Assembly (NCBI GenBank): GCA_028718265.1 | Contig: JAQUMG010000028.1 | Span: forward strand, 1 to 13,087 | DNA: 13,087 nt | Direction of reading: 5' to 3' | Origin: Candidatus Omnitrophota bacterium | GTDB taxonomy: Bacteria; Omnitrophota; Koll11; JAHIPI01 | Part shown: positions 39 to 11,379 of the stretch, piece after piece | Numbering within the stretch: position 1 is the stretch's first letter | How the letters are laid out: every line of letters begins with the position of its first letter | Position numbers and translations under genes: made by a program | Notes under the pieces: generated by a model | Databases searched by the model: none | Seen by the model: the letters and a program-made list of their open reading frames with translations, nothing else | Told to the model about the DNA's origin: nothing

Positions 39-3000
39 TTATTCTGCTCTATACCCTCTGTCGCCGCAATCAGGATTTTGAGGCGTATAGTCCAGATCCC
101 ATGGGGCTGTGTACAACGGGTCTTCATAGATGTTGCCGGGTCCTGTGGGAGTCTGAGCGCTTTGCGTAGCGTCGCACCAGACAATAGCACCGTCCGGATC
201 CTGGGTGAAGATACAGTTATTCTGCATATTTGCGAGCCGATCTGCAATAAGCGTACCGTCTTCATAAGTTATGTGGATACCGTCGAGTGAATTTGAGATG
301 ATATTATTTGTGATGAGCGGATTTTCTTTGTGTGCCCTTAATACGATACCGTATCTGTTGGCATCGAGGGTCGAATTCTGGATCATTCCCGTAAGGGCTC
401 CGCCAAAGACCTGATCGTAGTAGAATATGCCTGTATCACAGTGGATGATCAGTGCATTGTCGATTAGAGGCGCCTTGACAGGCGCGCCATAGAGATTCCA
501 TATCTGAATACCCTTGCCGAACGGCGCCTTCGGGCTTCCGCCGCCGCTAAGATCGGGATAGATGATACAGTTTCTGACGGTGATTTCCGAATCGACGGCG
601 GTTATGCCGGCGTCAGTAAGGATTTGCCAGCCGCTATAGTATGGATTTGTAAAGCTTGCGAACTCGCCTTCGTCATAGATAATGGTGAAGTTTTCGATTG
701 TATCATTGGCTTCAAAACAGGCAATGTTCCCCTCTATTATTGTGGCGGCGGCACTTTCGCCGATGAGGTCAACGCCGTCTTTAAGTATAATGTCTCCGGT
801 ATATGTCCCTTCCTGCACGGATACGGTCATGCCACTTGAGGCAGCGTCGATCGCGGCCTGTATGGACTCGCCGGGTTCCACCATTATACTGTTCGTAAAG
901 TCGCCATAAGGCCCGCCGTAGATACCCATGTCATTGCGGGTGAAATTGAGGTCATTGAATTGCGCGGCAGGATCGCCTGCATCTACACAGGGAGATCCTG
1001 CATCTAAATGATATGAGACATCGGTAAACAGTGGATCTGCCGTAATATTGCCGGGACCGGGTATGATGCCGGTCATAGGAACAGTTGTAGAGATTTCCCA
1101 TAGATCGTTATAGGAAAAATCCTGACTGCCGCTCCCCGAAAAATAGACTGCCTCCTGGCCCGTACTGATATTGGAAAAAATATTGTTTTTGGCAATGACG
1201 TTCGAATCAACGATTTTTAGCGCTACGCCACTTGTGTCAATACTATACCCTTCAATGGAGCAAAAAACATTATTATATAATATAATGTTGCTGTTAAGGG
1301 CGTCTAACCCCACGCCTACAGACGGATTATGATGCACTTTGGCATTTTCGATAATGTTGTTGCGGATAACGGCGGTGGAGTCCCTCAATATAATACCCCC
1401 GGTGGAATCCCATCCGTAAACGCCTCTCAATATATTACCCTCTATAGTCATGTTAGAATTCGCATGTAGTTGGATCGCTCCATTCCAGCGGGACCGGAAC
1501 ACATTATCTTTGATCAAACCTGTAGTTCCCGTTAAAAACAGCCCCCCAAGGTTGGGTCCCGGCGTAGCCATTGCATTTCCGACAAAATTGAGTCGGTTGT
1601 CTCCTGCCGCATAGAGAATGTTGCAATCCCAGAAACTGTTGTTTTTAACCTCCGCCGACGCGCCGGTTTCCATGTAAATACCGCTTCTAAGCTCATTACC
1701 TTCTATTTTTAAGAAAGAAACTGTACCTGCGCATTGTATGCTATAGGTTTCTCCTCCGATCAAAAATCCTTTAATGACCGTTTCTGCGCCGTTTATATCG
1801 GTACATCTAATAACAGTGTTACCGTAAGTACCCGAAGTACCCCAAATAGCGGGCAGTCCATCCTGAACGCCCTGAAGTGTTATGCCGCTCTTATTTAAGA
1901 CAAGATTTTCGTAATACGTCCCGGCCGCTATCTCAATAGTATCGCCGTTTGTCGCCGCGTCAATAGCCGCTTGGATCGTAGGATAATCTGCTGTAGGCAC
2001 GTTCAGGGTGCGCGGTCCTACCGCCGTTACTGTAAAGGTAGCCGCGTCAGATGCAAACAGTCCGCCCGGATCTGTGGCTTTAAAGGTTATGGTTTCTGAG
2101 CCGGACCATTCGGTACCGGGTATGGTGATGGTTGCTACTCTGTTCACAATCGAGACTGTCAGCTGCGAGTTGCCGGAGTAGGTCCATGTCATCTGGGCGT
2201 CGGTATTGTCGGCGTCTGAGACGTAGTTATCGAGTGTGATCGTAGTAAATGTTGCGCCTTCGGCCACTGTCTGGTTAGGTATGTCGGTGACAACCGGCGG
2301 TTGATTAATTCCCACCAGCGGATCAGTTCCTGCCAGAAGTTCGTTATAATCGCTTATTAAGTCGTTATCAGTATCGTTATCGTTAATGGCAGTGCCGATA
2401 AGCGTTTCGAGTTGGTCAGTAAGACCATCTAAGTCTGTATCGATCGGGAAATACGCTTTTGTAATATAATGTATATTTTTAGCATCACTTACGGAATTGG
2501 CTTTCGGCCAGTCCTGTTTTATGGCCAAGTTGATTACTATGTTGTCATTGTATTCAGCGTTTGTCGGGTCTTCATGAAGAATGAATGATAAAGGAATATC
2601 TGACGATATAAGCTGTATCGAGTAACTGGATCGCTTTTCGTATGTCGCGCTCGCGTAGGCTAAATAATGCGATTGGTCTCTATCTCTATTTTCCAATGCG
2701 CAATATAGCTGGGTACCGTTTTGAAGCGCGGAGAAATCAGTAACTACATGACTTGCCGGATTATCAACTGCATGTTCCTCAATAATATCTATCTTCCCGT
2801 CTGCGTTGCGATCATAGCCTACCACTATTATATCGCAGTCGTGCGCTTCGTCCGTTGAATCGCCGGGGGTGTCCGTCTCATCCTTCCAGAACATCGAGCT
2901 GTATCCTACCAACCCCGTATACGGTTCACTCGCTACGTTGATAATCCGACGCGCAAAAAATTTACCGGTAACATCCATACTGCTTGTTTCGCCGGCAGTA

Positions 3001-5009
3001 AGGTTCATACTTACGGCCCCTGTAAAACCCTCGCCATCAACCGTTGCCATAAAATTTGACACAGCACTTGAATCTATTCTATAATAAACCTCTCTAAAGC
3101 GCGGGAAATCCTCGTTCGCGCCGTCAAATACATTATGAAGGGCTACTCTATATGAAGAACCCACTATTTGCGGCACAAAACCGTTGAATCTGGCGTAACC
3201 GTTCGAATTAAAATCGAAAAATTGCGGGTAGCCATATCCCGACTGAAAATGGCCCACAATAAGTTTTGAAAGCACTTTCCCTGCTATGGGAATAAGGTTC
3301 TTATTAATAGGGGGATTTATCGGAGGTGTCGGGTAAGTCGGATTTGCAGCCGAATAGGTCCTTAAATCATACGTTCCGTCGTTATTTCCGTCCGTATATA
3401 TGCGGAAACGAAGGTGATCATTACCTGCCCGCGGCATTGCTTTACCATAGGTATCTAACTTATCAATGAAATTAGCACATTGTATCGCATTGCTTTCATT
3501 ATACACAAGCCCGACAGAGTCAGGCTGGCTATCGGCAGGATAATCCAGCATGGGTATGGCGGGCGGTGCCGGTTTGATATATGTACCCTGCGATAGCTGA
3601 AAGGCTTCCGCCGCTATATTATCTAATGTAGGTGTCTTTGTTAAGGTGGGTTTTGAACCTGAATTTTTCGGATCGGTTTCATTTTCTATTTCGACGCCGT
3701 CATTTGCACCATCGTCGTCGCTGTCACTATCAAGCGGACCTGTCAAATAAGTCTTTACTTCCTCACCGTCAAGCACGCTGTCTCCATCTGTGTCGGGATT
3801 ACTCGGATTTGTCCCCTGAACCGCCTCTTCCGTATCCAGGAGGCCGTCCTGGTCAGTATCAAGATTATAATCGTAGGGCGTGCCGCCATATGCGCCCATA
3901 TCGTTGCGCGTACCGTCAACATCATTGTATATAGTATCGGGGTTTCCGGCGTTAATACAGGGTGAGCCTGCCTGTAAATGGTAATCTCCGGTAAGTTGGG
4001 GATTCTGTGAAATCGAGCCGGTTCCGGGGGTACAGCCGTAATAGTCGCCGCTGGAATTATTATACACATCATTATATTCTAATACGGCCGGCTGGGTTAA
4101 ACAGTATATCCCGCCTGCATAGCTATCAGCAGAATTATTTACAATGATATTATTGATTATTTTAGGGGTGGAATCGCTGGTGGCGTAGATAGCGCCGCCC
4201 TGCCCGTTAGCCCATTTCACGGCTACGTTCTTTACAAAGGTATTATTAATAACATCGGGTGAAGACTGATAATCGCAATATAATCCGCCGCCATCCTGAT
4301 AAGTAGTAAAATTGCCGTCGATAATATTATTTTTGATCGGTGGGGACGCATGGTAGCAATATATTCCGCCGCCAAAGTCTGAAGAGTTGCCGTAGATGGT
4401 GTTTTTGGCGATCATACTGCCGGAATACTGCAAGTAGATACCTCCGCCCCGGCCCCACGCGGTATTATTTTTTATTATGTTTCCGGTAATCTCTACCTGG
4501 GAAGAATTGCAGCAAATTCCGCCGCCCCACCCGCAGGCGCCGCTGAAATTCGTTCTTCCGTTAATTATGAGGTTGTTTTTAACTTTACCGGAAGCGCCGT
4601 TGTAATAAATATTGCCGCCGTATGTGTCTCCATAACCGTTCCGGATGGTGAAACCGTCTATAACCACATTGCTTATGATTTCACAGGTTACGGGCCGACC
4701 CGCGTTACTGCCGTCTATTATACTGTCATCGGAAAAGTTATCCGGAGTCACCACGCCGCCGCCTGTACCTTTAAGCGTAATCCCGGATTTTAAAGTAAGA
4801 TACTCATTATACGTCCCCACGGCTACATTGATAGTATCGCCGCTTGTTGCGGCGTCAATAGCGGCCTGAATTGTGGAATATTGTGTTGGGACGTTAAGTG
4901 TTGCGGCAAAGGAAGTACCTGAAATAAAAAAAACTGTCATAATAAACATTATAACAGCCGTAAAAATGTGCGCAAAAAAATTATGGGCCCGGCGGTTTCG
5001 ACCTTTCAT
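39..5009 (-). CDS. Giant exported multidomain protein: beta-helix, TSP3-like repeats, MdoG/OpgG-like domain, Ig-like domain, two more beta-helices
   Basis: A 1656-aa exported protein. Residues 1-36 are a signal peptide: basic K3/R4/R6/R7, a hydrophobic core, and probable cleavage after the SFAA stretch. Domains in order are a right-handed parallel beta-helix of the pectin-lyase type (about 37-376, rich in NN-I-I and GGGIY turns), TSP3-like Asp-rich repeats (384-447), an MdoG/OpgG-like domain (about 460-850), a second TSP3-like block (857-897), a cadherin/Ig-like domain (about 902-998, opening NQPPVVTDIPNQTVAEGA), and beta-helices two (1000-1366) and three (1374-1656). The ATG start is supported by GGAAAGGT six bases upstream and by the signal peptide directly after it. 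No LPXTG, PEP-CTERM or autotransporter barrel is visible at the C terminus, so it may be periplasmic or released. Role inferred: binding or cleaving glucan or another polysaccharide, with Ca-stabilised linkers. The gene model is certain; the function is not. Confidence 0.93.
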   Translation of the reverse strand: MKGRNRRAHNFFAHIFTAVIMFIMTVFFISGTSFAATLNVPTQYSTIQAAIDAATSGDTINVAVGTYNEYLTLKSGITLKGTGGGVVTPDNFSDDSIIDGSNAGRPVTCEIISNVVIDGFTIRNGYGDTYGGNIYYNGASGKVKNNLIINGRTNFSGACGWGGGICCNSSQVEITGNIIKNNTAWGRGGGIYLQYSGSMIAKNTIYGNSSDFGGGIYCYHASPPIKNNIIDGNFTTYQDGGGLYCDYQSSPDVINNTFVKNVAVKWANGQGGAIYATSDSTPKIINNIIVNNSADSYAGGIYCLTQPAVLEYNDVYNNSSGDYYGCTPGTGSISQNPQLTGDYHLQAGSPCINAGNPDTIYNDVDGTRNDMGAYGGTPYDYNLDTDQDGLLDTEEAVQGTNPSNPDTDGDSVLDGEEVKTYLTGPLDSDSDDDGANDGVEIENETDPKNSGSKPTLTKTPTLDNIAAEAFQLSQGTYIKPAPPAIPMLDYPADSQPDSVGLVYNESNAIQCANFIDKLDTYGKAMPRAGNDHLRFRIYTDGNNDGTYDLRTYSAANPTYPTPPINPPINKNLIPIAGKVLSKLIVGHFQSGYGYPQFFDFNSNGYARFNGFVPQIVGSSYRVALHNVFDGANEDFPRFREVYYRIDSSAVSNFMATVDGEGFTGAVSMNLTAGETSSMDVTGKFFARRIINVASEPYTGLVGYSSMFWKDETDTPGDSTDEAHDCDIIVVGYDRNADGKIDIIEEHAVDNPASHVVTDFSALQNGTQLYCALENRDRDQSHYLAYASATYEKRSSYSIQLISSDIPLSFILHEDPTNAEYNDNIVINLAIKQDWPKANSVSDAKNIHYITKAYFPIDTDLDGLTDQLETLIGTAINDNDTDNDLISDYNELLAGTDPLVGINQPPVVTDIPNQTVAEGATFTTITLDNYVSDADNTDAQMTWTYSGNSQLTVSIVNRVATITIPGTEWSGSETITFKATDPGGLFASDAATFTVTAVGPRTLNVPTADYPTIQAAIDAATNGDTIEIAAGTYYENLVLNKSGITLQGVQDGLPAIWGTSGTYGNTVIRCTDINGAETVIKGFLIGGETYSIQCAGTVSFLKIEGNELRSGIYMETGASAEVKNNSFWDCNILYAAGDNRLNFVGNAMATPGPNLGGLFLTGTTGLIKDNVFRSRWNGAIQLHANSNMTIEGNILRGVYGWDSTGGIILRDSTAVIRNNIIENAKVHHNPSVGVGLDALNSNIILYNNVFCSIEGYSIDTSGVALKIVDSNVIAKNNIFSNISTGQEAVYFSGSGSQDFSYNDLWEISTTVPMTGIIPGPGNITADPLFTDVSYHLDAGSPCVDAGDPAAQFNDLNFTRNDMGIYGGPYGDFTNSIMVEPGESIQAAIDAASSGMTVSVQEGTYTGDIILKDGVDLIGESAAATIIEGNIACFEANDTIENFTIIYDEGEFASFTNPYYSGWQILTDAGITAVDSEITVRNCIIYPDLSGGGSPKAPFGKGIQIWNLYGAPVKAPLIDNALIIHCDTGIFYYDQVFGGALTGMIQNSTLDANRYGIVLRAHKENPLITNNIISNSLDGIHITYEDGTLIADRLANMQNNCIFTQDPDGAIVWCDATQSAQTPTGPGNIYEDPLYTAPWDLDYTPQNPDCGDRGYRAE
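840..866 (-). repeat. Beta-helix entry motif, copy 3 (SIQAAIDAA)
   Basis: Residues 1382-1390, in the context VEPGESIQAAIDAASSGMTVSVQEGTY. It opens the third and last beta-helix module, which runs to the end of the protein. It is more diverged than copies 1 and 2. Confidence 0.8.
912..1001 (-). repeat. Beta-helix exit motif, copy 2
   Basis: Residues 1337-1366, AGSPCVDAGDP followed by TRNDMGIYGG, closing the second beta-helix. It pairs with copy 1 at 3882-3971 and shows that modules one and two are full duplicates of the same entry-helix-exit unit. Confidence 0.8.
1950..1979 (-). repeat. Beta-helix entry motif, copy 2 (TIQAAIDAAT)
   Basis: Residues 1011-1020, in the context TLNVPTADYPTIQ...GDTIEIAAGTYYE. 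It is almost identical in protein sequence to copy 1, but the codons have diverged, so the duplication is not recent. It opens the second beta-helix directly after the Ig-like domain. Confidence 0.85.
2319..2441 (-). other. Second TSP3-like calcium-binding repeat block
   Basis: Residues 857-897 contain DTDLDGLTDQLE and NDNDTDNDLISDYNE, followed by LLAGTDP. These again are TSP3-like units and mark the downstream edge of the MdoG-like domain. The two blocks therefore bracket that domain on both sides, as expected if it is a separate folding cassette. The next domain (902-998) is an Ig/cadherin-like sandwich, seen as PPVVTDIPNQTV at its start and ITFKATDPGG and AATFTVTAV at its end. Confidence 0.75.
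2460..3632 (-). other. MdoG/OpgG-OpgD-like (GH186) domain inside the giant protein
   Basis: Residues about 460-850. Recognised by collinear matches, from memory, to E. coli OpgG. LDNIAAEAFQLSQGTY matches the OpgG N terminus (IDDVAKQAQSLAGKGY). EDFPRFREVYY (633-643) matches EEFPRFKEFW. The stretch from FMATVD to SSMFWKDE (653-711) matches YALLDSP to LTSMFLFG. HDCD (723-726) matches HDSN, NRDRDQSHY with ATYEKR matches QRGRDFSRF with DRYDLR, and AEYNDNIV (818-825) matches DETNDNIVAYW. OpgG and OpgD act in the periplasm on osmoregulated beta-1,2-glucans, and OpgD is a GH186 beta-1,2-glucanase. As I recall, its catalytic aspartates are D300 and D388. They correspond to D724 and D822 here, and both are present. 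Loops are shorter than in OpgG. The C-terminal Ig-like part of OpgG appears to be replaced by TSP3-like repeats and another Ig-like domain. Homology is likely; activity is inferred. Confidence 0.82.
3669..3860 (-). other. First TSP3-like calcium-binding repeat block
   Basis: Residues 384-447 of the giant protein hold three Asp-rich units of the DxDxDGxxDxxE type: DTDQDGLLDTEE, NPDTDGDSVLDGEE and DSDSDDDGANDGVE. This spacing is typical of thrombospondin type-3 and bacterial TSP3 repeats, which bind Ca2+ and form rigid linkers on extracytoplasmic proteins. The block joins the first beta-helix to the MdoG-like domain. Ca2+ binding is known for the family and inferred here. Confidence 0.8.
3882..3971 (-). 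repeat. Beta-helix exit motif, copy 1 (AGSPCxxAGxP...TRNDMGxYGG)
   Basis: Residues 347-376 close the first beta-helix. The pattern AGSPC-AG-P-ND-TRNDMGAYGG resembles the closing segment common in secreted bacterial beta-helix proteins (SPCIDAG...DIGAYE). The second copy is at 912-1001. The third module ends in a reduced form, NPDCGDRGY, at the extreme C terminus. Confidence 0.8.
4845..4874 (-). repeat. Beta-helix entry motif, copy 1 (TIQAAIDAAT)
   Basis: Residues 46-55 at the mature N terminus. The motif NVPTQYSTIQAAIDAAT, followed by GDTI and GTYNE, is the capping strand and helix that opens many pectin-lyase-like beta-helices. It occurs three times in this protein; the other copies are at 1950-1979 and 840-866. 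It marks the start of each beta-helix module. Confidence 0.85.
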
Positions 5010-5135: not shown

Positions 5136-5165
5136 TTTATAATATTCTAACCATTTTGCTGTCTA
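5136..5165 (-). promoter_or_regulatory. Candidate sigma-70-type promoter for the giant beta-helix gene
   Basis: On the minus strand TAGACA (5160-5165, overlapping the stop codon of the upstream glycosyltransferase) and TATAAA (5136-5141) are separated by 18 bases. Each matches 5 of 6 consensus positions. The overlapping TATTAT (5139-5144) is another possible -10, but with only a 15-base spacer. It lies in the only intergenic gap over 50 bp (5010-5162) and would give a leader of roughly 120 bases. AT-rich DNA yields such matches by chance, so this is tentative. Confidence 0.35.
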
Positions 5166-6884
5166 TTTTTTATTAGACACAATGTATATCTCTTCTTTAA
5201 GCGCTGCCTTTACCGACGCGCGGTTATTTTGCAGCATATCCGAAAATATGTTTTTGAAATATTGCAGATTTTGTTTATCAAGCCTTTTCCAATTTGATCT
5301 CTTATCAAGAATATACAGCCTCTTTTTTAAATCTTCCGTTATAAATTTCCCGTACTCCGTTTCCGATACGACGCAGAAGACCCTCACATCTTTTGCAGAA
5401 AGAAAATCATTGAATTCGGGCGCAGTTCTTATGCCTTTAACAGCATAGGCATCCAGATAAACATTTAACCGGTGATAATTCGCGGAATCGGCACCGACTA
5501 AATCCCCCTCTTTTATAACTGCCCGGATATCGGCCCCGAAGTCCGCCAGGGGATCAATTTCAATTACAGGGAGTACGGATCCTGCAAAATATCCGAAACA
5601 AGCAATCGTAGTAATACAAAAACTTACCGGAAGTAATATCCTGTTTCTATTCCGTCCTAAATAAGCAAACAGCATTCCTATGGGCAACAAAAACATCAAA
5701 AGCGACAATGAAACCAATGGTTCATCAAATACATAAAAGCCGATACATAACCACAGAGAAAAAACAATAAAGCACGCCGCAATAGTCAGGATGAACGGGA
5801 CCGCGAATAACGCACTGCGGCACAAATCATCCTTTTCGGTAAGATCGGATAAATATACGCCTATAAACATGGCCAGGGGCGCCGAAAGCGGCAGGACATA
5901 ATAACTCTCTCTGGACCATACCGCGACTATCATAATAAAAACCGCTGAAAACCATGAAATTATGAGATGCCCGCCGCATCCTTTTTTTTCGGAATAAGCC
6001 GTGTCGTTGCGGCGTAAAGAAAAAATAGCGGCGGGTAAAAAAATAGACCACGGAAGAGTTCTTAATAATATCATCCCCGAATAGTAAAAAATCGACGAGA
6101 AATAATGGAATAATGCGTTACCGTGTGTCTGGGACTCAGAAAAGTTCAACTTTTTCATTATCTCCAAGGACCAGACATTGCCGATATACTCTTTGCCGTG
6201 AAGAGTTATCATCGTTATAAACCACGGCGCGCTTATGGCGATAAATATAACCAGACCCAGGACAATTTTAATATCTTTTATTACGGCCCAATCTTTGCGG
6301 ATAATGATGAATATGCATATCATCAACATCGGATAAAATAAACCCAGCGGCCCCTTGGTAAGCATGGCGAGAGCCATAAAAATATACATATATAAATAAC
6401 GAAAATTACCTTTAATATGCTCCAGATATGCTTTTATAAAAAAGTAGATTGCCAGCATAATAAAAAGCGTGAATGTCGTGTCGGGAACGGCAAATCTGGC
6501 ATATGTGAAAAAGATTTCGCATGTGGCCAGGGTAATGGCCGAAAATAGCGCCGCCTTTTTGCCAAAAAGGTCCCGCGCCAGGAAGTAAATTATTATTACG
6601 CTCAGAATACCGGCAATAATGGAAGGAAATCTGGCGGCAAAAATCCCGATGCCTAAGATTTTATAGGAAAGAATTATCAGCCAGTAAAAGAGTATCGGTT
6701 TCTGGAAACGCAGGTCACCATGATAATGCGGCGTGATGTAATCCCCGCCTGCTTCCATCTCTTTTGTGCTTTGTATATATCTTTTTTCGTCCGGAATCGA
6801 ATAGCCGAGTTTACTTCTATTTACCGAGTAGAGCCCAAGCAAAACAGCTATTATGAAAATCCCTACTATGACATCTCTTTTCAA
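5163..6884 (-). CDS. GT39 (ArnT/PMT-like) membrane glycosyltransferase, paralogue C
   Basis: A 573-aa polytopic inner-membrane protein of the ArnT/PMT superfamily, which transfers a sugar from a polyprenyl-phosphate donor to an acceptor on the outer face of the membrane. The family Asp-Glu motif is present in the first external loop (P31-D32-E33-K-R-Y). It is followed by RFQKPILFYW (59-68), FAARFPS (82-88), YARFAVPD (128-135), a LTKGPLGL loop and SAPWF. About ten further hydrophobic segments follow, then a soluble C-terminal domain (about 430-573) ending IYIVSNKK. The start is TTG: the first in-frame ATG (Met43) would remove the first membrane segment and the Asp-Glu motif. AGGGG lies eight bases upstream. 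It begins 17 bp after the LAB_N gene and is the last gene of the tight cluster. Sugar and acceptor cannot be told from sequence. Confidence 0.9.
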   Translation of the reverse strand: MKRDVIVGIFIIAVLLGLYSVNRSKLGYSIPDEKRYIQSTKEMEAGGDYITPHYHGDLRFQKPILFYWLIILSYKILGIGIFAARFPSIIAGILSVIIIYFLARDLFGKKAALFSAITLATCEIFFTYARFAVPDTTFTLFIMLAIYFFIKAYLEHIKGNFRYLYMYIFMALAMLTKGPLGLFYPMLMICIFIIIRKDWAVIKDIKIVLGLVIFIAISAPWFITMITLHGKEYIGNVWSLEIMKKLNFSESQTHGNALFHYFSSIFYYSGMILLRTLPWSIFLPAAIFSLRRNDTAYSEKKGCGGHLIISWFSAVFIMIVAVWSRESYYVLPLSAPLAMFIGVYLSDLTEKDDLCRSALFAVPFILTIAACFIVFSLWLCIGFYVFDEPLVSLSLLMFLLPIGMLFAYLGRNRNRILLPVSFCITTIACFGYFAGSVLPVIEIDPLADFGADIRAVIKEGDLVGADSANYHRLNVYLDAYAVKGIRTAPEFNDFLSAKDVRVFCVVSETEYGKFITEDLKKRLYILDKRSNWKRLDKQNLQYFKNIFSDMLQNNRASVKAALKEEIYIVSNKK

Positions 6885-6901
6885 GTCACCCGCCCCTGTC
6901 T

Positions 6902-7183
6902 TTAGACATTCTTTTCTTTGTGCCTGGCGACCAGTACAAGATTTCGCGCATATACTATTAAGCCGGCCCCTTGTCCCAGGGTAAAGACAATGTCTCTGCG
7001 GTAAATAGCATATATAAAAAGTGCGGCTCCGCCGGCAAGACTAAAATACCAGAACGATACCGGAATTACGCTTTTTTTCATTTTTTCGGAATACAGCCAC
7101 TGGACAATAAACCTCAGGCTGAAACATAGCTGGCCTAACAATCCGAAAATAACCCATGGATTTAAAAGATCGCTAAAATTCAT
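6902..7183 (-). CDS. LAB_N (lipid-A biosynthesis N-terminal domain) small membrane protein
   Basis: A 93-aa protein with about three membrane segments (roughly 8-28, 41-60, 66-86). It matches the LAB_N family: G17-Q18, R24-F25, Q28-W29, S32-E33, K37, P41, F44-W45, D64, L69-G70-Q71, Y78, R80-N81. In some bacteria this domain is fused to the N terminus of LpxB; here it stands alone. Free-standing copies are often found beside a GT2 and a GT39 gene, as here, which suggests a role in making, flipping or presenting the polyprenyl-linked sugar. That role is inference. The start is supported by AAAGGA six bases upstream (7190-7195), which lies directly against the stop codon of the GT2 gene; the gap is 12 bp. 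Confidence 0.88.
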   Translation of the reverse strand: MNFSDLLNPWVIFGLLGQLCFSLRFIVQWLYSEKMKKSVIPVSFWYFSLAGGAALFIYAIYRRDIVFTLGQGAGLIVYARNLVLVARHKEKNV

Positions 7184-7195
7184 ACTATATCCTTT

Positions 7196-7879
7196 CTACA
7201 TCCAACTTTTTCTGTTAAACAACAACGTCAGAAAATCGTAAGCCACCTTGAAAGACCTCGTGAATCCGTATTTTGTCTTACCGTAATGCCGGGGCAGATG
7301 GTGAACCTTCACTTCGGACGGCTTTTCTCCCTTCATCATCAGGAGATACGGAATAAATCTGTGCGCGCCCTCTTTTTTGAGCGGCAGCACTTTTATGGAA
7401 TCCTTAGTATAAACCCTCAGCGTGCAGGAGATATCGTGAAGGTTGCTTCTGAAAACAGTCTTCTGCGCTAAATTGCCGAACCAAGACGCTATCTTCTTGG
7501 AGACGGGGTCCTTACGCGGATAACGCCAGCCGCATACAAAGTCATATCCCTTATTAAGTTCGGCTACGAGTTTCGGTATATCATTGGGGTCGTTTTGCAT
7601 ATCGCCGTCCATCGATATGATTATTTCGCCGCGGGCTCTTTCGAAACCGAATCTCAGGGATGCGGTCTGCCCGCTTCGTACGTTGTTATGTATCACGATT
7701 ACCGTGCCGTCGGACAGAGATACGCTTTTCAATATTTCCTTAGTTCTGTCGGTAGAACCGTCGTTTATAAAAATAATCTCATAATCGGCCCTTAGCGAGT
7801 CCATTACGCGCTTAATGGACTCATATAGCGGCCTGACCGATTCTTCTTCGTTAAAAAACGGGACTACAACAGAATACAT
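7196..7879 (-). CDS. Family 2 glycosyltransferase, DPM1/ArnC-like
   Basis: A 227-aa GT-A fold enzyme expected to transfer a sugar from a nucleotide donor to undecaprenyl (polyprenyl) phosphate on the cytoplasmic face. Visible motifs are VVPFFNEEESV (4-14), NDGSTD (39-44), the metal-binding D91-x-D93 within DGDMQNDP with Q95 and P98, GWR (117-119), GAHRF (171-175) and GKTKYGFTRS (190-199). It lacks the two C-terminal membrane helices of ArnC/GtrB-type enzymes, so it resembles short DPM1-like forms that bind the membrane peripherally. It begins two bases after the stop of the preceding GT39, and its GAGG ribosome binding site (7885-7888) lies inside that gene's last codons, so translational coupling is likely. 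It probably supplies the donor lipid for one or more of the GT39 enzymes. The sugar is not known. Confidence 0.92.
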   Translation of the reverse strand: MYSVVVPFFNEEESVRPLYESIKRVMDSLRADYEIIFINDGSTDRTKEILKSVSLSDGTVIVIHNNVRSGQTASLRFGFERARGEIIISMDGDMQNDPNDIPKLVAELNKGYDFVCGWRYPRKDPVSKKIASWFGNLAQKTVFRSNLHDISCTLRVYTKDSIKVLPLKKEGAHRFIPYLLMMKGEKPSEVKVHHLPRHYGKTKYGFTRSFKVAYDFLTLLFNRKSWM

Positions 7880-7881
7880 CT

Positions 7882-9408
7882 TTACCTCTTATTACTCACG
7901 ACGTAAATTTCATTCTGGAAAACTTCTTTAAAGAGATCACCGCCTTCGCTGCCCACGGCGTCTTTTACCTCATTAAATGTTATTCTGCGCTTCCATACAT
8001 AATAGCTGTCTATGATATATAATTTTTCCCTCATCTCTGCCGGGAGAAATGTCTCGTAATCTTTTTTCTTTATTACGCAGAATACCCTGTCCTGCGAATT
8101 TAAAAATTCCTTCAACCGCGGAACCGTATCCATGGAAGGCCGGCCATCTGCGGTGTATGTAACCTTAACCAGCTCCACCGGCACCTGAAAGAATACCTGC
8201 AATTCTTCAGGGATTATACCATGAGATCCTATGCCTATTCTATCTCCTTCTTTCATGCCGGCTTTTATGGAAAACGCGGCATGTTCCATCCTGTTACTGA
8301 ATAGCCCGTAAGCCGGCAATAGATTAAATGCGATATATAATAACGAAAGAAATGCTACTATGCCGATAGGGAGCACTCTTTTCTTCTGCGCCAATTTAGC
8401 AAAAAACACTCCTACCAATATCGATGCTGCCGGCGCCAATGCCAGAAGATAATGCGTTCTCCTCTCCGCGACAAAGGTAAAAAATAAGAAAACTACAGCT
8501 ACCCAGGTAAGCAGAAAAATGCGGCCGTCGTTTTCGCTTCTACTGTTTCGGGCAACGCCTGCGAAGGCAAAAGGCATAAACAGAGAATACGGTAAAAATT
8601 TCGTTATCAAAGTAACTGTGTAGAAAATAAATCCCTTAATATAAACCATTATAAATGAACCGGCGTGCCCCCAGCCGAGCCTTTGCAATATCTCGCGGCT
8701 GACTACCTCATTTGCATATCTTTCGGGATATATTTTCCACATCGCGTAAAACCACGGCACCGTGATAACCAAGAACAATATAACTCCTGCTGCAACGTCA
8801 CTCAGTTTAAACACTGTCTCTTTCTTCAGCAGGCAGAATATCGCCGTTATTAAAAGCGGGATCAGCACGCCGACGGGGCCTTTTATCAAAAAAGCGACGG
8901 CCAGGGCTGCGAAAAAAAACCGCAGGCCGGTGCCTGTCCTGAATTTATAATAGTTAATAAAAAAGTACAGGGCCAGTGTCTCAAAAAAAATCAAGGACAT
9001 ATCCGGCACCGCCAACCGCGCATATCTGTAGTATAGCGGCGTAGTAGCCGCAAAAAGTGCCGCAAATAAGGCAGTTTTTTTGTCCCTGAATAACAGTTCG
9101 GCTATTTTGAATATCAAAAGCGCGCACAAAGAACCAAGCAGAATAGACGGCAGCCGCGCAGCAAACCAGTTTACGCCGAATATTTTAAAGGAAAGCAGAA
9201 TAAACCAATAAAATAATATCGGTTTCTGAAACCTTTCCTCGTTCATATACCGCGGGGTCAGGATGTCTTTGGTTTCGAGCATGTGCCGCGTGCTTTCGAA
9301 GTAAAAATTCTCGTCGCCTTTGAATTCCAGGCTGGATTTTTGCGCGCCAAAAGAAAATAAGAGCGCGCAGTACAGAAAAATACATATTTTTACAGGGAAA
9401 GATTTCAT
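7882..9408 (-). CDS. GT39 (ArnT/PMT-like) membrane glycosyltransferase, paralogue B
   Basis: A 508-aa polytopic protein, the shortest of the three GT39 paralogues here. It has the Asp-Glu motif G31-D32-E33-N-F-Y, RFQKPILFYW, FAARLPS, YARLAVPD, an IKGPVGVLIPLL loop and TVPWF, then a hydrophobic body. The C-terminal soluble domain (about 375-508) contains FCVIKKKDYETFLP and YVWKR and ends IYVVSNKR. This tail matches paralogue C closely (FCVVSETEYGKFIT, NWKR, IYIVSNKK), so B and C appear to be the closer pair. The start is ATG. There is no clear Shine-Dalgarno in the 39 bp between it and the preceding small gene, so it may depend on coupling or on A/T-rich leader sequence. Role as for the other GT39s: sugar transfer from a lipid carrier on the external side. 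The acceptor is unknown. Confidence 0.9.
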   Translation of the reverse strand: MKSFPVKICIFLYCALLFSFGAQKSSLEFKGDENFYFESTRHMLETKDILTPRYMNEERFQKPILFYWFILLSFKIFGVNWFAARLPSILLGSLCALLIFKIAELLFRDKKTALFAALFAATTPLYYRYARLAVPDMSLIFFETLALYFFINYYKFRTGTGLRFFFAALAVAFLIKGPVGVLIPLLITAIFCLLKKETVFKLSDVAAGVILFLVITVPWFYAMWKIYPERYANEVVSREILQRLGWGHAGSFIMVYIKGFIFYTVTLITKFLPYSLFMPFAFAGVARNSRSENDGRIFLLTWVAVVFLFFTFVAERRTHYLLALAPAASILVGVFFAKLAQKKRVLPIGIVAFLSLLYIAFNLLPAYGLFSNRMEHAAFSIKAGMKEGDRIGIGSHGIIPEELQVFFQVPVELVKVTYTADGRPSMDTVPRLKEFLNSQDRVFCVIKKKDYETFLPAEMREKLYIIDSYYVWKRRITFNEVKDAVGSEGGDLFKEVFQNEIYVVSNKR

Positions 9409-9447
9409 AAAGAAACCATGGCCGATAAAAAGGTTGGCTGCCTGCTT

Positions 9448-9591
9448 TTACAGTTCGTATACGCCCAGCGGTGCAGGGTCAGGAAAATGAAAATAAAATA
9501 CGCCTGCCGCCAAAACTATAAATATCGCTATACCTGCCAGAATAAACGCGATAAGGATGTTTGACAGTATCTGCTTCCTTTTGTCCTTCAA
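9448..9591 (-). CDS. Small single-pass membrane peptide, 47 aa
   Basis: A short open frame between two GT39 genes. It starts at TTG, the only possible start, since an in-frame TAA lies five codons upstream. GGGAG (9598-9602) is six bases before the TTG. The product has a basic N terminus (KDKRKQ), one strong hydrophobic helix of about 24 residues (12-35), then FHFPDPAPLGVYEL outside. The positive-inside rule puts the N terminus in the cytoplasm. It starts 33 bp after the upstream GT39 and ends 39 bp before the next one, so it fills an otherwise empty gap in the operon. I do not recognise the family. It could be a small subunit or stabiliser of a GT39, or a chance frame. The start signals, hydrophobic helix and position favour a real gene. 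Confidence 0.62.
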   Translation of the reverse strand: MKDKRKQILSNILIAFILAGIAIFIVLAAGVFYFHFPDPAPLGVYEL

Positions 9592-9597
9592 AGCTAA

Positions 9598-9602
9598 CTC
9601 CC
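9598..9602 (-). promoter_or_regulatory. Ribosome binding site of the 47-aa membrane peptide
   Basis: GGGAG on the minus strand, six bases before the TTG at 9591. It decides the non-ATG start and is one of the main reasons to accept this small gene. Confidence 0.5.
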
Positions 9603-9624
9603 GTTATACTGTTATTATACATAA

Positions 9625-11379
9625 TTAGTCCGAATCTTTTTTATTGGTCAAAAGATAAACTTTGTGCCTCAGTACGTCCTTTAGAATATCCTTCTTGCCG
9701 CGCAATACTTCCGAGATCGTCTCTTTGCCGAGACTTCTCTTTAAGCGCGTCTTCCACATCTCGCGCTCATCCATTATAATCAGTTTCGATTTAATGTCAT
9801 CCGGTATAAGCGACATATAATCGTCCTCCGCTATCACTAAATACACTTTATCGCCGGAGGTAAGAAAGTCTGCCAGCTTATTCTTATGCAGCGGAACAAC
9901 GTCGGACAATTTAGATTTTACATTTACTTCCTCAATCGGCATGTCCATATATATCCCGATACGCTGCTGGCTTATATCGACAGAGCCTACTCCCACCTTT
10001 TCCCCCGGTTTTATAAGACTTTTTATCTCATCGGTAAAGGCAGGAAGCGCTCTGTCGTTAAACAAGGGTATCGCTCTTCCGGCGAGGAACAGCATCAATA
10101 CGGCCATGGCGATCGGTATAGCAAAAAGCGTGGCGGTACTCTTTTTCCTTAGATAAGGCAATATGATAATCAACGGCGCTAGAGCTACGGCATATTCATA
10201 AACCGCCACCCGGGAAGAATAGATATGATGCATCGTATATAGAATGCCTGAAAGACCTAAAATATAGACTATCGTTACCAATATATAAACTATGTTGAAG
10301 CCGATAGACCTGAATTGCATATTTCTCTCTTCCAGATTTATGAAGTACCTGGCTGTCATAAGGCCTAAGGCAGGCGAGAGCGGCAGCAGATATTGGTATT
10401 CCTTAGCCCTCATAAGACTGAAAAAGATGAATATACCCAGAAAATAGCTCAATATAAGTTTATAGGAATCTCTCTCGAGAGAATATGTTTTTTTACTCTT
10501 AAATGCATCCCGTATAGCGGCCGGCAAAAATAATGAATACGGCATAAACCACACGATTAACACAGGAATGTAGAAAAAAAGCTTTTTGAGATAGGTTAAC
10601 AAAAAGCCATGACCTGCTCCGGTATTCGGCACACAAAACATCCGCTTTATTGCATCAAATGCGATTGTATGGTTCAGATACTTATCGCCGTGCAAAAGGC
10701 ACATTGCAATATACCACGGCAGCCCTACGGCCAGGATTATAAATACGCCTGAAGGGATATTTATCGCCTTAAGAAGTTTCCATTTTTTAGCGCTGATAAT
10801 AAAAGACAACACCACGATTAGCGGCAAAAGAAAGCCGACGTAACCTTTAGTCATTGTAGCCAATCCAAGAACTACAAAAAAAGCCGTAAAAAATGGTTTT
10901 CCTTTTTCGGGATCCTTTGTGCCCTTCAAAAAGAGATATATCGCATAAACCACAAAAAAGGTAAGGGCCATATCCGGAGAGGCATATCTTGAATACATAA
11001 AAAATATAACAAGAGTCGCAACTATGCCGGCAGCCAAAAGCCCGGTTTTGCGGTCAAAGAGTCTTCTGCCTATATTAAAGGTGAATATGACCGTCAGGAT
11101 GCCGAATAAGACAGAAGGAAAACGCACTGCGAAGTTATTAATTCCGAACGCGAGATACGAAAGACTCACTAACCAGTAGAAAAGAATGGGTTTCTGGAAG
11201 CGGAATTGTCCCTGATAATAAGGAGTAATCCAGTCGTGCCGGGCAAACATTTCTTTTACGCTCTGGAAATAAAATTTCTCGCTTTCGATTATGGGGAGAG
11301 CGCTGCCCAGATTATAGGCAAATATTATGCCGCAAATGATAAATAGCAGAAATTTTACCGAAGCATCGTTTTTTTTCAA
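9625..11379 (-). CDS. GT39 (ArnT/PMT-like) membrane protein, paralogue A, with altered Asp-Glu motif
   Basis: A 584-aa polytopic protein and the first glycosylation gene after purQ (26 bp gap). It carries RFQKPILFYW (60-69), FAVRFPS, YSRYASPD, a TKGYVGFLLPL loop and GLPWY. The C-terminal domain (about 440-584) contains LVIAEDDYMSLIP and MWKTR and ends VYLLTNKKDSD, clearly related to the tails of the other two GT39s. The odd feature is the first external loop. Where paralogues B and C have Asp-Glu followed by K/N-x-Tyr, this one reads E32-S33-E34-K-F-Y, so the Asp is a Ser (AGC codon) while the Glu is kept. Activity may be lost or changed, or neighbouring E32 may compensate. The start is TTG, with GAGAGGA seven bases upstream (11387-11393). 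Confidence 0.9.
   Translation of the reverse strand: MKKNDASVKFLLFIICGIIFAYNLGSALPIIESEKFYFQSVKEMFARHDWITPYYQGQFRFQKPILFYWLVSLSYLAFGINNFAVRFPSVLFGILTVIFTFNIGRRLFDRKTGLLAAGIVATLVIFFMYSRYASPDMALTFFVVYAIYLFLKGTKDPEKGKPFFTAFFVVLGLATMTKGYVGFLLPLIVVLSFIISAKKWKLLKAINIPSGVFIILAVGLPWYIAMCLLHGDKYLNHTIAFDAIKRMFCVPNTGAGHGFLLTYLKKLFFYIPVLIVWFMPYSLFLPAAIRDAFKSKKTYSLERDSYKLILSYFLGIFIFFSLMRAKEYQYLLPLSPALGLMTARYFINLEERNMQFRSIGFNIVYILVTIVYILGLSGILYTMHHIYSSRVAVYEYAVALAPLIIILPYLRKKSTATLFAIPIAMAVLMLFLAGRAIPLFNDRALPAFTDEIKSLIKPGEKVGVGSVDISQQRIGIYMDMPIEEVNVKSKLSDVVPLHKNKLADFLTSGDKVYLVIAEDDYMSLIPDDIKSKLIIMDEREMWKTRLKRSLGKETISEVLRGKKDILKDVLRHKVYLLTNKKDSD

Follow-up and report, generated by a model that had tools for sequence, protein, structure and literature searches.

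What does a domain of the OpgG/OpgD (MdoG) kind do in the middle of a large secreted protein? The question is raised by the window analysed here, a stretch of 13,087 nucleotides from a Candidatus Omnitrophota bacterium (contig JAQUMG010000028.1), whose minus strand encodes a protein in which an original prediction, made from the letters alone, had recognised a likeness to OpgG/OpgD along their length. The favoured answer, with a probability of about 0.58, is that the gene product is a secreted multi-domain carbohydrate-active protein centred on a GH186-type module, with a role in the processing or breakdown of beta-1,2-glucan and not in the synthesis of osmoregulated periplasmic glucans (OPG) with OpgH. 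The gene and its module are located as follows.

39..5009, minus strand: whole gene of the secreted modular protein, 1656 amino acids (aa), from the open reading frame (ORF) listing
2418..3647, minus strand: GH186/MdoG-type catalytic module, residues 455-864

The Pfam profile MdoG (PF04349) matches the whole protein far above its cut-off (E = 3.8e-18, 66.1 bits against 25), as the original prediction had anticipated, and the segment of residues 460-850 alone (window 2460-3632) at 4.6e-19. Searched with the single sequence, the PDB gave a weak match (8x18 at E = 0.44); the profile search then decided the matter. The predicted fold of the module is that of the OpgG/OpgD catalytic domain, again as expected, at 17-20% identity in the structure alignments. 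The likeness along the whole length holds only in part: the catalytic domain and, by structure, the N-terminal part (from OpgG residue 22) are matched, but the sequence profile is confined to residues 614-851 (profile positions 142-368 of 478) and there is no C-terminal domain. This truncation is common to relatives of the module, called short type here as opposed to the classic proteins: the MdoG match ends at profile positions 343-368 of 478 in all eight short-type whole proteins scanned and at 476-478 in classic ones (n = 12), and the match with our profile A2 is followed by 101-138 residues in classic proteins and by 0 in stand-alone short-type ones. The gaps of the alignment at Loop A are partly due to its construction, as the pieces were cut beforehand. 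A classic OpgG/OpgD identity was rejected on the missing C-terminal domain, the gene context and the tree. Yet, since some GH186 clades are without the Loop A region (PMC10514313, in the part available), the missing loop bars OpgG/OpgD and not GH186.

For the active site of Escherichia coli OpgD (EcOpgD), the available part of PMC10514313 gives D388 as general acid and proposes D300 as base; mutants of E209, D300, Y356, R359, E385 and D388 are left with 3.5, 0.90, 16, 0.46, 2.0 and 0.16% activity. The window protein keeps all six residues (alignment, codons checked; the roles of the acid and the base are those given in that paper).

3111..3113, minus strand: E633, equivalent to EcOpgD E209
2838..2840, minus strand: D724, equivalent to the proposed general base D300
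2640..2642, minus strand: Y790, equivalent to Y356
2631..2633, minus strand: R793, equivalent to R359
2553..2555, minus strand: E819, equivalent to E385
2544..2546, minus strand: D822, equivalent to the general acid D388 (D361 in E. coli OpgG)

Among 25 short-type sequences, a count that leaves out the divergent G110, the full set is found in 23; the acid D388 is kept in 25, the base D300 and R359 in 24 each. T386 of EcOpgD, a residue lining the nucleophilic water, corresponds to a variable position in both short and classic sequences and to a tyrosine in the window protein. By its predicted fold and its active site, the module is a GH186 catalytic domain of a clade apart from OpgG/OpgD.

The distribution of this clade was studied through several searches. 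A search with the module retrieved 13 proteins including the window's own, and a second one added three, for a total of 16 (732-2300 aa). According to precomputed Pfam matches, 10 of the 16 carry a beta-helix family (PF13229 or PF05048), 10 carry TSP3 and six carry both; P0010 adds dockerin, cohesin, FG-GAP and GEVED, P0016 adds Calx-beta, P0003 carries PF09458, which we take to be H_lectin, and P0005 carries PF18962, presumably the Por secretion tail. The original prediction knew of no described protein with the architecture of the window protein. This stands for the literature covered, as the titles and abstract openings listed on MdoG/PF04349, GH186, XCC2207 and glycoside hydrolases of Omnitrophota do not name it and no paper was found joining MdoG with a beta-helix or domain architecture, MdoG with thrombospondin, or Omnitrophota with osmoregulated periplasmic glucan. 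For the proteins themselves it needs a limit: the module also occurs in 15 further longer proteins, and for five of these beta-helix, TSP3 and MdoG are all listed. Because the domain combination recurs, a fusion produced by an assembly artefact or a chance resemblance of sequence, whose likelihood is negligible, was rejected.

A scan of the genome collection with two peptide patterns returned 101 stretches, nine of which encode a relative: a beta-helix protein of Acidobacteriota, a protein of Candidatus Saelkia, two of Thiodictyon (871 and 849 aa) and five stand-alone proteins (428-441 aa), four of them from Competibacteraceae and one labelled Phycisphaerales that nests among Competibacteraceae in the tree. 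The label or binning of the latter genome (L008) is probably wrong. A further frame of stand-alone size (533 aa) in G009 has a short-type score of 378 bits. In the Omnitrophota sample, 19 of 384 genomes matched the A2 profile, two of them with clear short-type genes (two genes in the Saelkia genome G002, one in G323). One of 396 did so in the sample centred on the Acidobacteriota genome, and 71 of 299 in that centred on G006 (apparently Pseudomonadota-like), where G006 alone has the short type. Short-type rows score at least 285 bits and classic ones 71-105, with G110 in between at 153; identity to the window module falls to 25-34% in the most distant rows. In the tree, reconstructed by a quick method without bootstrap from 63 of 70 rows (five duplicates and the classic L013 and L016 were omitted), a branch with SH-aLRT 100 separates all 26 short-type rows from E. 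coli OpgG and OpgD; the placement of G110, which sits on a long branch, is uncertain. The short-type clade may equal one of the 14 published GH186 clades. Two other Omnitrophota frames deserve mention: a 2819-aa HEAT-repeat frame that encloses the MdoG match of G110 (L067, contig 9, otherwise nearly empty), and a 13,048-aa open frame with a weak MdoG match (L068, contig 44 of G029).

The gene neighbourhoods of three Omnitrophota relatives hold glucanase-type genes. In contig 22 of Saelkia, a PF10091 gene matching the GH189 domain 8wy1 at 1.5e-28 precedes the module gene by 198 bases, and the module gene overlaps a GH116 gene downstream; an SBP5 solute-binding gene is found about 5 kb further upstream, and the interval contains genes resembling permeases and ATPases, along with two that belong to other metabolism (assigned by eye). 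In contig 25 of the same genome, the second module gene overlaps a PF10091 gene of 1375 aa matching the GH144 beta-1,2-glucanase XcSGL at 5.9e-9; the neighbouring frame of 1291 aa (L036 3-3875) contains a weak OpgH-like stretch (E = 1.2e-6, below the cut-off) and no Pfam match. The gene that overlaps the module gene of G323 has no Pfam match, resembles EeSGL1 (GH192) at 4.1e-40 and keeps acidic residues aligned with EeSGL1 D149 and E221, if an offset of one residue is assumed. PF10091 matches number six in G002 (four over the cut-off) and five in G323, and in G003 a PF10091 gene lies on the module contig, about 20 kb away. With its five PF10091 genes, its GH192-like gene and no OpgH in a small genome (~1.3 Mb), G323 is perhaps a beta-1,2-glucan user. 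Of nine genomes compared, G001 has no OpgH match and G002 a weak one below the cut-off, and the other seven hold both OpgH and classic OpgG/OpgD. No OpgH over the cut-off was found in G323 either, and G062, G110 and G029 show none. The location of some relatives next to glucan-degradation genes suggests that the GH186 family, studied to date in the synthesis of a periplasmic sugar polymer, also works in glucan degradation.

Classic loci served as controls. In Omnitrophota, each of the 16 found with A2 has an OpgH-like ORF next to it (E = 1.2e-144 or better; the stretches covered span 5.2-13.0 kb), and three of the 15 genomes concerned have one PF10091 gene each, in frames of ~2900 aa away from the contig of the classic gene. 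OpgH adjoins seven of 12 classic loci in the Competibacteraceae-type and Thiodictyon genomes and one of nine in the G006 sample; since many classic loci outside Omnitrophota are without an adjoining OpgH, its absence alone does not mark the short type. The three glucanase queries match only themselves and not each other (E up to 1e-3) and are therefore weak probes, so it is the PF10091 search, itself blind to the G323 neighbour, that supports the absence of glucanases next to classic loci. No OpgH and no PF10091 gene adjoins any of nine short-type loci from outside Omnitrophota (L003, L005-L011, L096).

A secreted, beta-1,2-glucan-active enzyme of glucan breakdown is the most economical reading; its substrate, activity and cellular location are inferred. 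With its signal peptide, beta-helices, TSP3 repeats and Ig-like domain, the protein would hold the module on the cell surface or outside the cell, where the module would bind a beta-1,2-linked glucose chain in the cleft of its beta-sandwich. D822 would then protonate the scissile bond and D724, aided by R793, could act as general base through ordered waters, with either inverting cleavage or inverting transglycosylation, as in OpgD of Xanthomonas campestris (XccOpgD), as the outcome. The glucan could be the cell's own, environmental, or that of neighbouring cells, and in some relatives the module may act together with GH144/GH189/GH192-type enzymes. The earlier idea of a glucan-binding or glucan-cleaving machine of the surface or periplasm fits both the kept active site and the glucanase-type neighbours of the three Omnitrophota relatives.

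Nevertheless, several observations weigh against this reading. The C-terminal domain with Loop A (434-453), which shields the water relay in EcOpgD, is absent from the short type. D351, whose D351N mutant keeps 23% activity in EcOpgD (PMC10514313, available part), is an aspartate in 39 of 39 classic sequences and in one of 25 short-type ones, and the substrate or mechanism of the short type may therefore differ. Two of the 25 have changed active-site residues: in P0012, positions 300, 359 and 385 are occupied by R, H and D, and in L036, positions 356 and 385 by F and I. Glucanase-type neighbours occur in three of 12 short-type loci and not in the nine of Acidobacteriota, Competibacteraceae-type bacteria and Thiodictyon, and one of the three is closest to a transglycosylase (GH189). 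Finally, the three Omnitrophota comparators fall outside the 15-row tree group that holds the window protein, and the downstream side of the window gene is cut by the contig end.

Some of these points would be expected if the module were a non-catalytic, lectin-like part of a surface adhesin whose beta-helices and TSP3 repeats mainly attach to glucan-bearing cells or matrix. Adhesins commonly hold beta-helix, TSP3 and Ig parts. The loss of the Loop A domain and the replacement of the base and of R359 in P0012 agree with such a role, and members with a changed active site may, judging from their residues, only bind; residues 641-1065 of P0012 are possibly a natural binding-only variant. Cell-cell adhesion has also been proposed for large Omnitrophota proteins (PMC10066038, available part). 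Pure binding, however, does not require both acid and base, which are kept; the complete set in 23 of 25 sequences despite identities down to 25-34%, and the glycosidase-type genes adjoining three Omnitrophota relatives, also make a mere adhesin rather unlikely. Alternatively, the module could be a transglycosylase that trims or cyclises the cell's own exported glucan or modifies an exopolysaccharide. The loss of Loop A would fit transglycosylation, because in XccOpgD, which cyclises beta-1,2-glucan, Loop A does not reach far enough to cover the relay, and the shielding comes from the glucan itself (PMC11228985, available part). The window gene moreover adjoins three PMT-family genes and one GT2 glycosyltransferase gene, and the nearest match of one Omnitrophota neighbour is the GH189 transglycosylase domain; yet two of the three neighbours are closest to hydrolases, and G001, G002 and G323 show no OpgH over the cut-off, which leaves this explanation unlikely.

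A bolder version of the favoured breakdown role holds that a deep GH186 clade without Loop A left OPG synthesis and became an extracellular attack module on large beta-helix proteins of Omnitrophota and other bacteria, partly with GH144/GH192-type glucanases, stripping or eating the periplasmic glucans of Gram-negative prey or neighbours. A predatory or parasitic life with very large proteins has been suggested for Omnitrophota (PMC10066038, available part), which makes attack on other cells' glucans possible, though unproven; as a whole, the scenario is quite doubtful. If the glucan-breakdown role is correct, a minimal secreted GH186 module, tied to beta-1,2-glucanase-type genes in part of the genomes, would indicate that the fold serves glucan breakdown too, test the need of Loop A for catalysis, and hint at beta-1,2-glucan as a resource for Omnitrophota.

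The remaining domains of the protein are arranged around the module as follows, the ends of the signal peptide, beta-helices and TSP3 repeats being set by eye.

4905..5009, minus strand: probable signal peptide, residues 1-35 (basic start, hydrophobic stretch, SFA-A)
3885..4892, minus strand: beta-helix 1, about residues 40-375 (Pfam Beta_helix 2.2e-14, NosD 4.9e-10 on residues 1-380)
3654..3872, minus strand: TSP3 (calcium-binding) repeats before the module, about residues 380-452 (TSP3_bac 6.7e-08)
2307..2417, minus strand: TSP3 repeats after the module, about residues 865-901 (TSP3_bac 0.00012)
2025..2306, minus strand: Ig-like domain, residues 902-995 (Big_9 7.2e-07)
930..2012, minus strand: beta-helix 2, about residues 1000-1360 (Beta_helix 5.2e-12)
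60..857, minus strand: beta-helix 3, about residues 1385-1650 (NosD 7e-07, Beta_helix 1.5e-06)

The three beta-helices and the Ig-like domain of the original prediction were recovered, the former by piecewise matches in residues 1-380, 1000-1365 and 1366-1656. The TSP3 flanks were recovered too: TSP3_bac matches three stretches of the whole protein, best at residues 384-405, and the trailing repeats, scanned within residues 871-1010, score 22.3 bits, slightly under the cut-off of 25. The protein is probably calcium-stabilised. Two EF-hand-like DxDxDG loops are also seen inside the module (window 2400-3647), at module positions 86 and 279; among P0001-P0013 the pattern occurs near position 86 in eight of 13 and near 279 in ten, and P0013 has neither. 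A NosD copper protein of nitrous oxide reductase maturation was rejected, as TIGR04247 reaches 81.2 bits against a cut-off of 300. The protein had also been called giant, a term that 1656 aa do not justify beside the 20-kb ORFs so named in Omnitrophota (PMC10066038, available part). Its ATG is preceded by a purine-rich GGAAAGG stretch, and the database entry (P0001, 1636 aa) starts 20 residues downstream of it.

The minus strand of the window further encodes a partial purL, purQ and three PMT-family genes with a GT2 gene among them. The PMT genes (PF13231/PF02366; window 5163-11379) are diverged, with ~28-35% mutual identity in aligned pieces, and their vicinity to the beta-helix gene suggests a glycosylation locus. 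As first noted, no OpgH is in view among the window genes, the gene ending 39 bases from the contig end with its downstream side outside the contig. A contig of G062, from the phylum of Candidatus Saelkia (Omnitrophota), shows the same gene order, with identities of 77% for purL, 76% for purQ and 85% for the start of the adjoining PMT gene; that contig ends within the PMT gene, before the position of the beta-helix gene, and G062 is not among the 19 genomes of the Omnitrophota sample matched by A2.

The closest known system is the GH186/MdoG superfamily (E. coli OpgD and OpgG, X. campestris OpgD; PDB 8ip1, 8ip2, 1txk, 8x18). In the available parts of PMC10514313 and PMC11228985, these three proteins are the members of known activity, and no studied member of clades 5-13 appears. 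Unlike them, the window module has no C-terminal domain or Loop A, has lost D351 and belongs to a separate deep clade, and it is part of a large secreted protein of 1656 aa, whereas OpgG/OpgD are stand-alone proteins of ~500 aa, usually encoded beside OpgH. The beta-1,2-glucanase superfamily (GH144, GH162, GH189, GH192-194) perhaps has its substrate in common with the module and its genes adjoin it in three Omnitrophota loci, but its fold is an (alpha/alpha)6 barrel (PMC12102758, available part) and that of the module a beta-sandwich. Secreted beta-helix/NosD-like and TSP3-containing proteins (PF13229, PF05048, PF18884), lastly, share their accessory domains with the window protein, which differs from NosD-like proteins in not reaching the NosD subfamily cut-off and in carrying a GH186 module.
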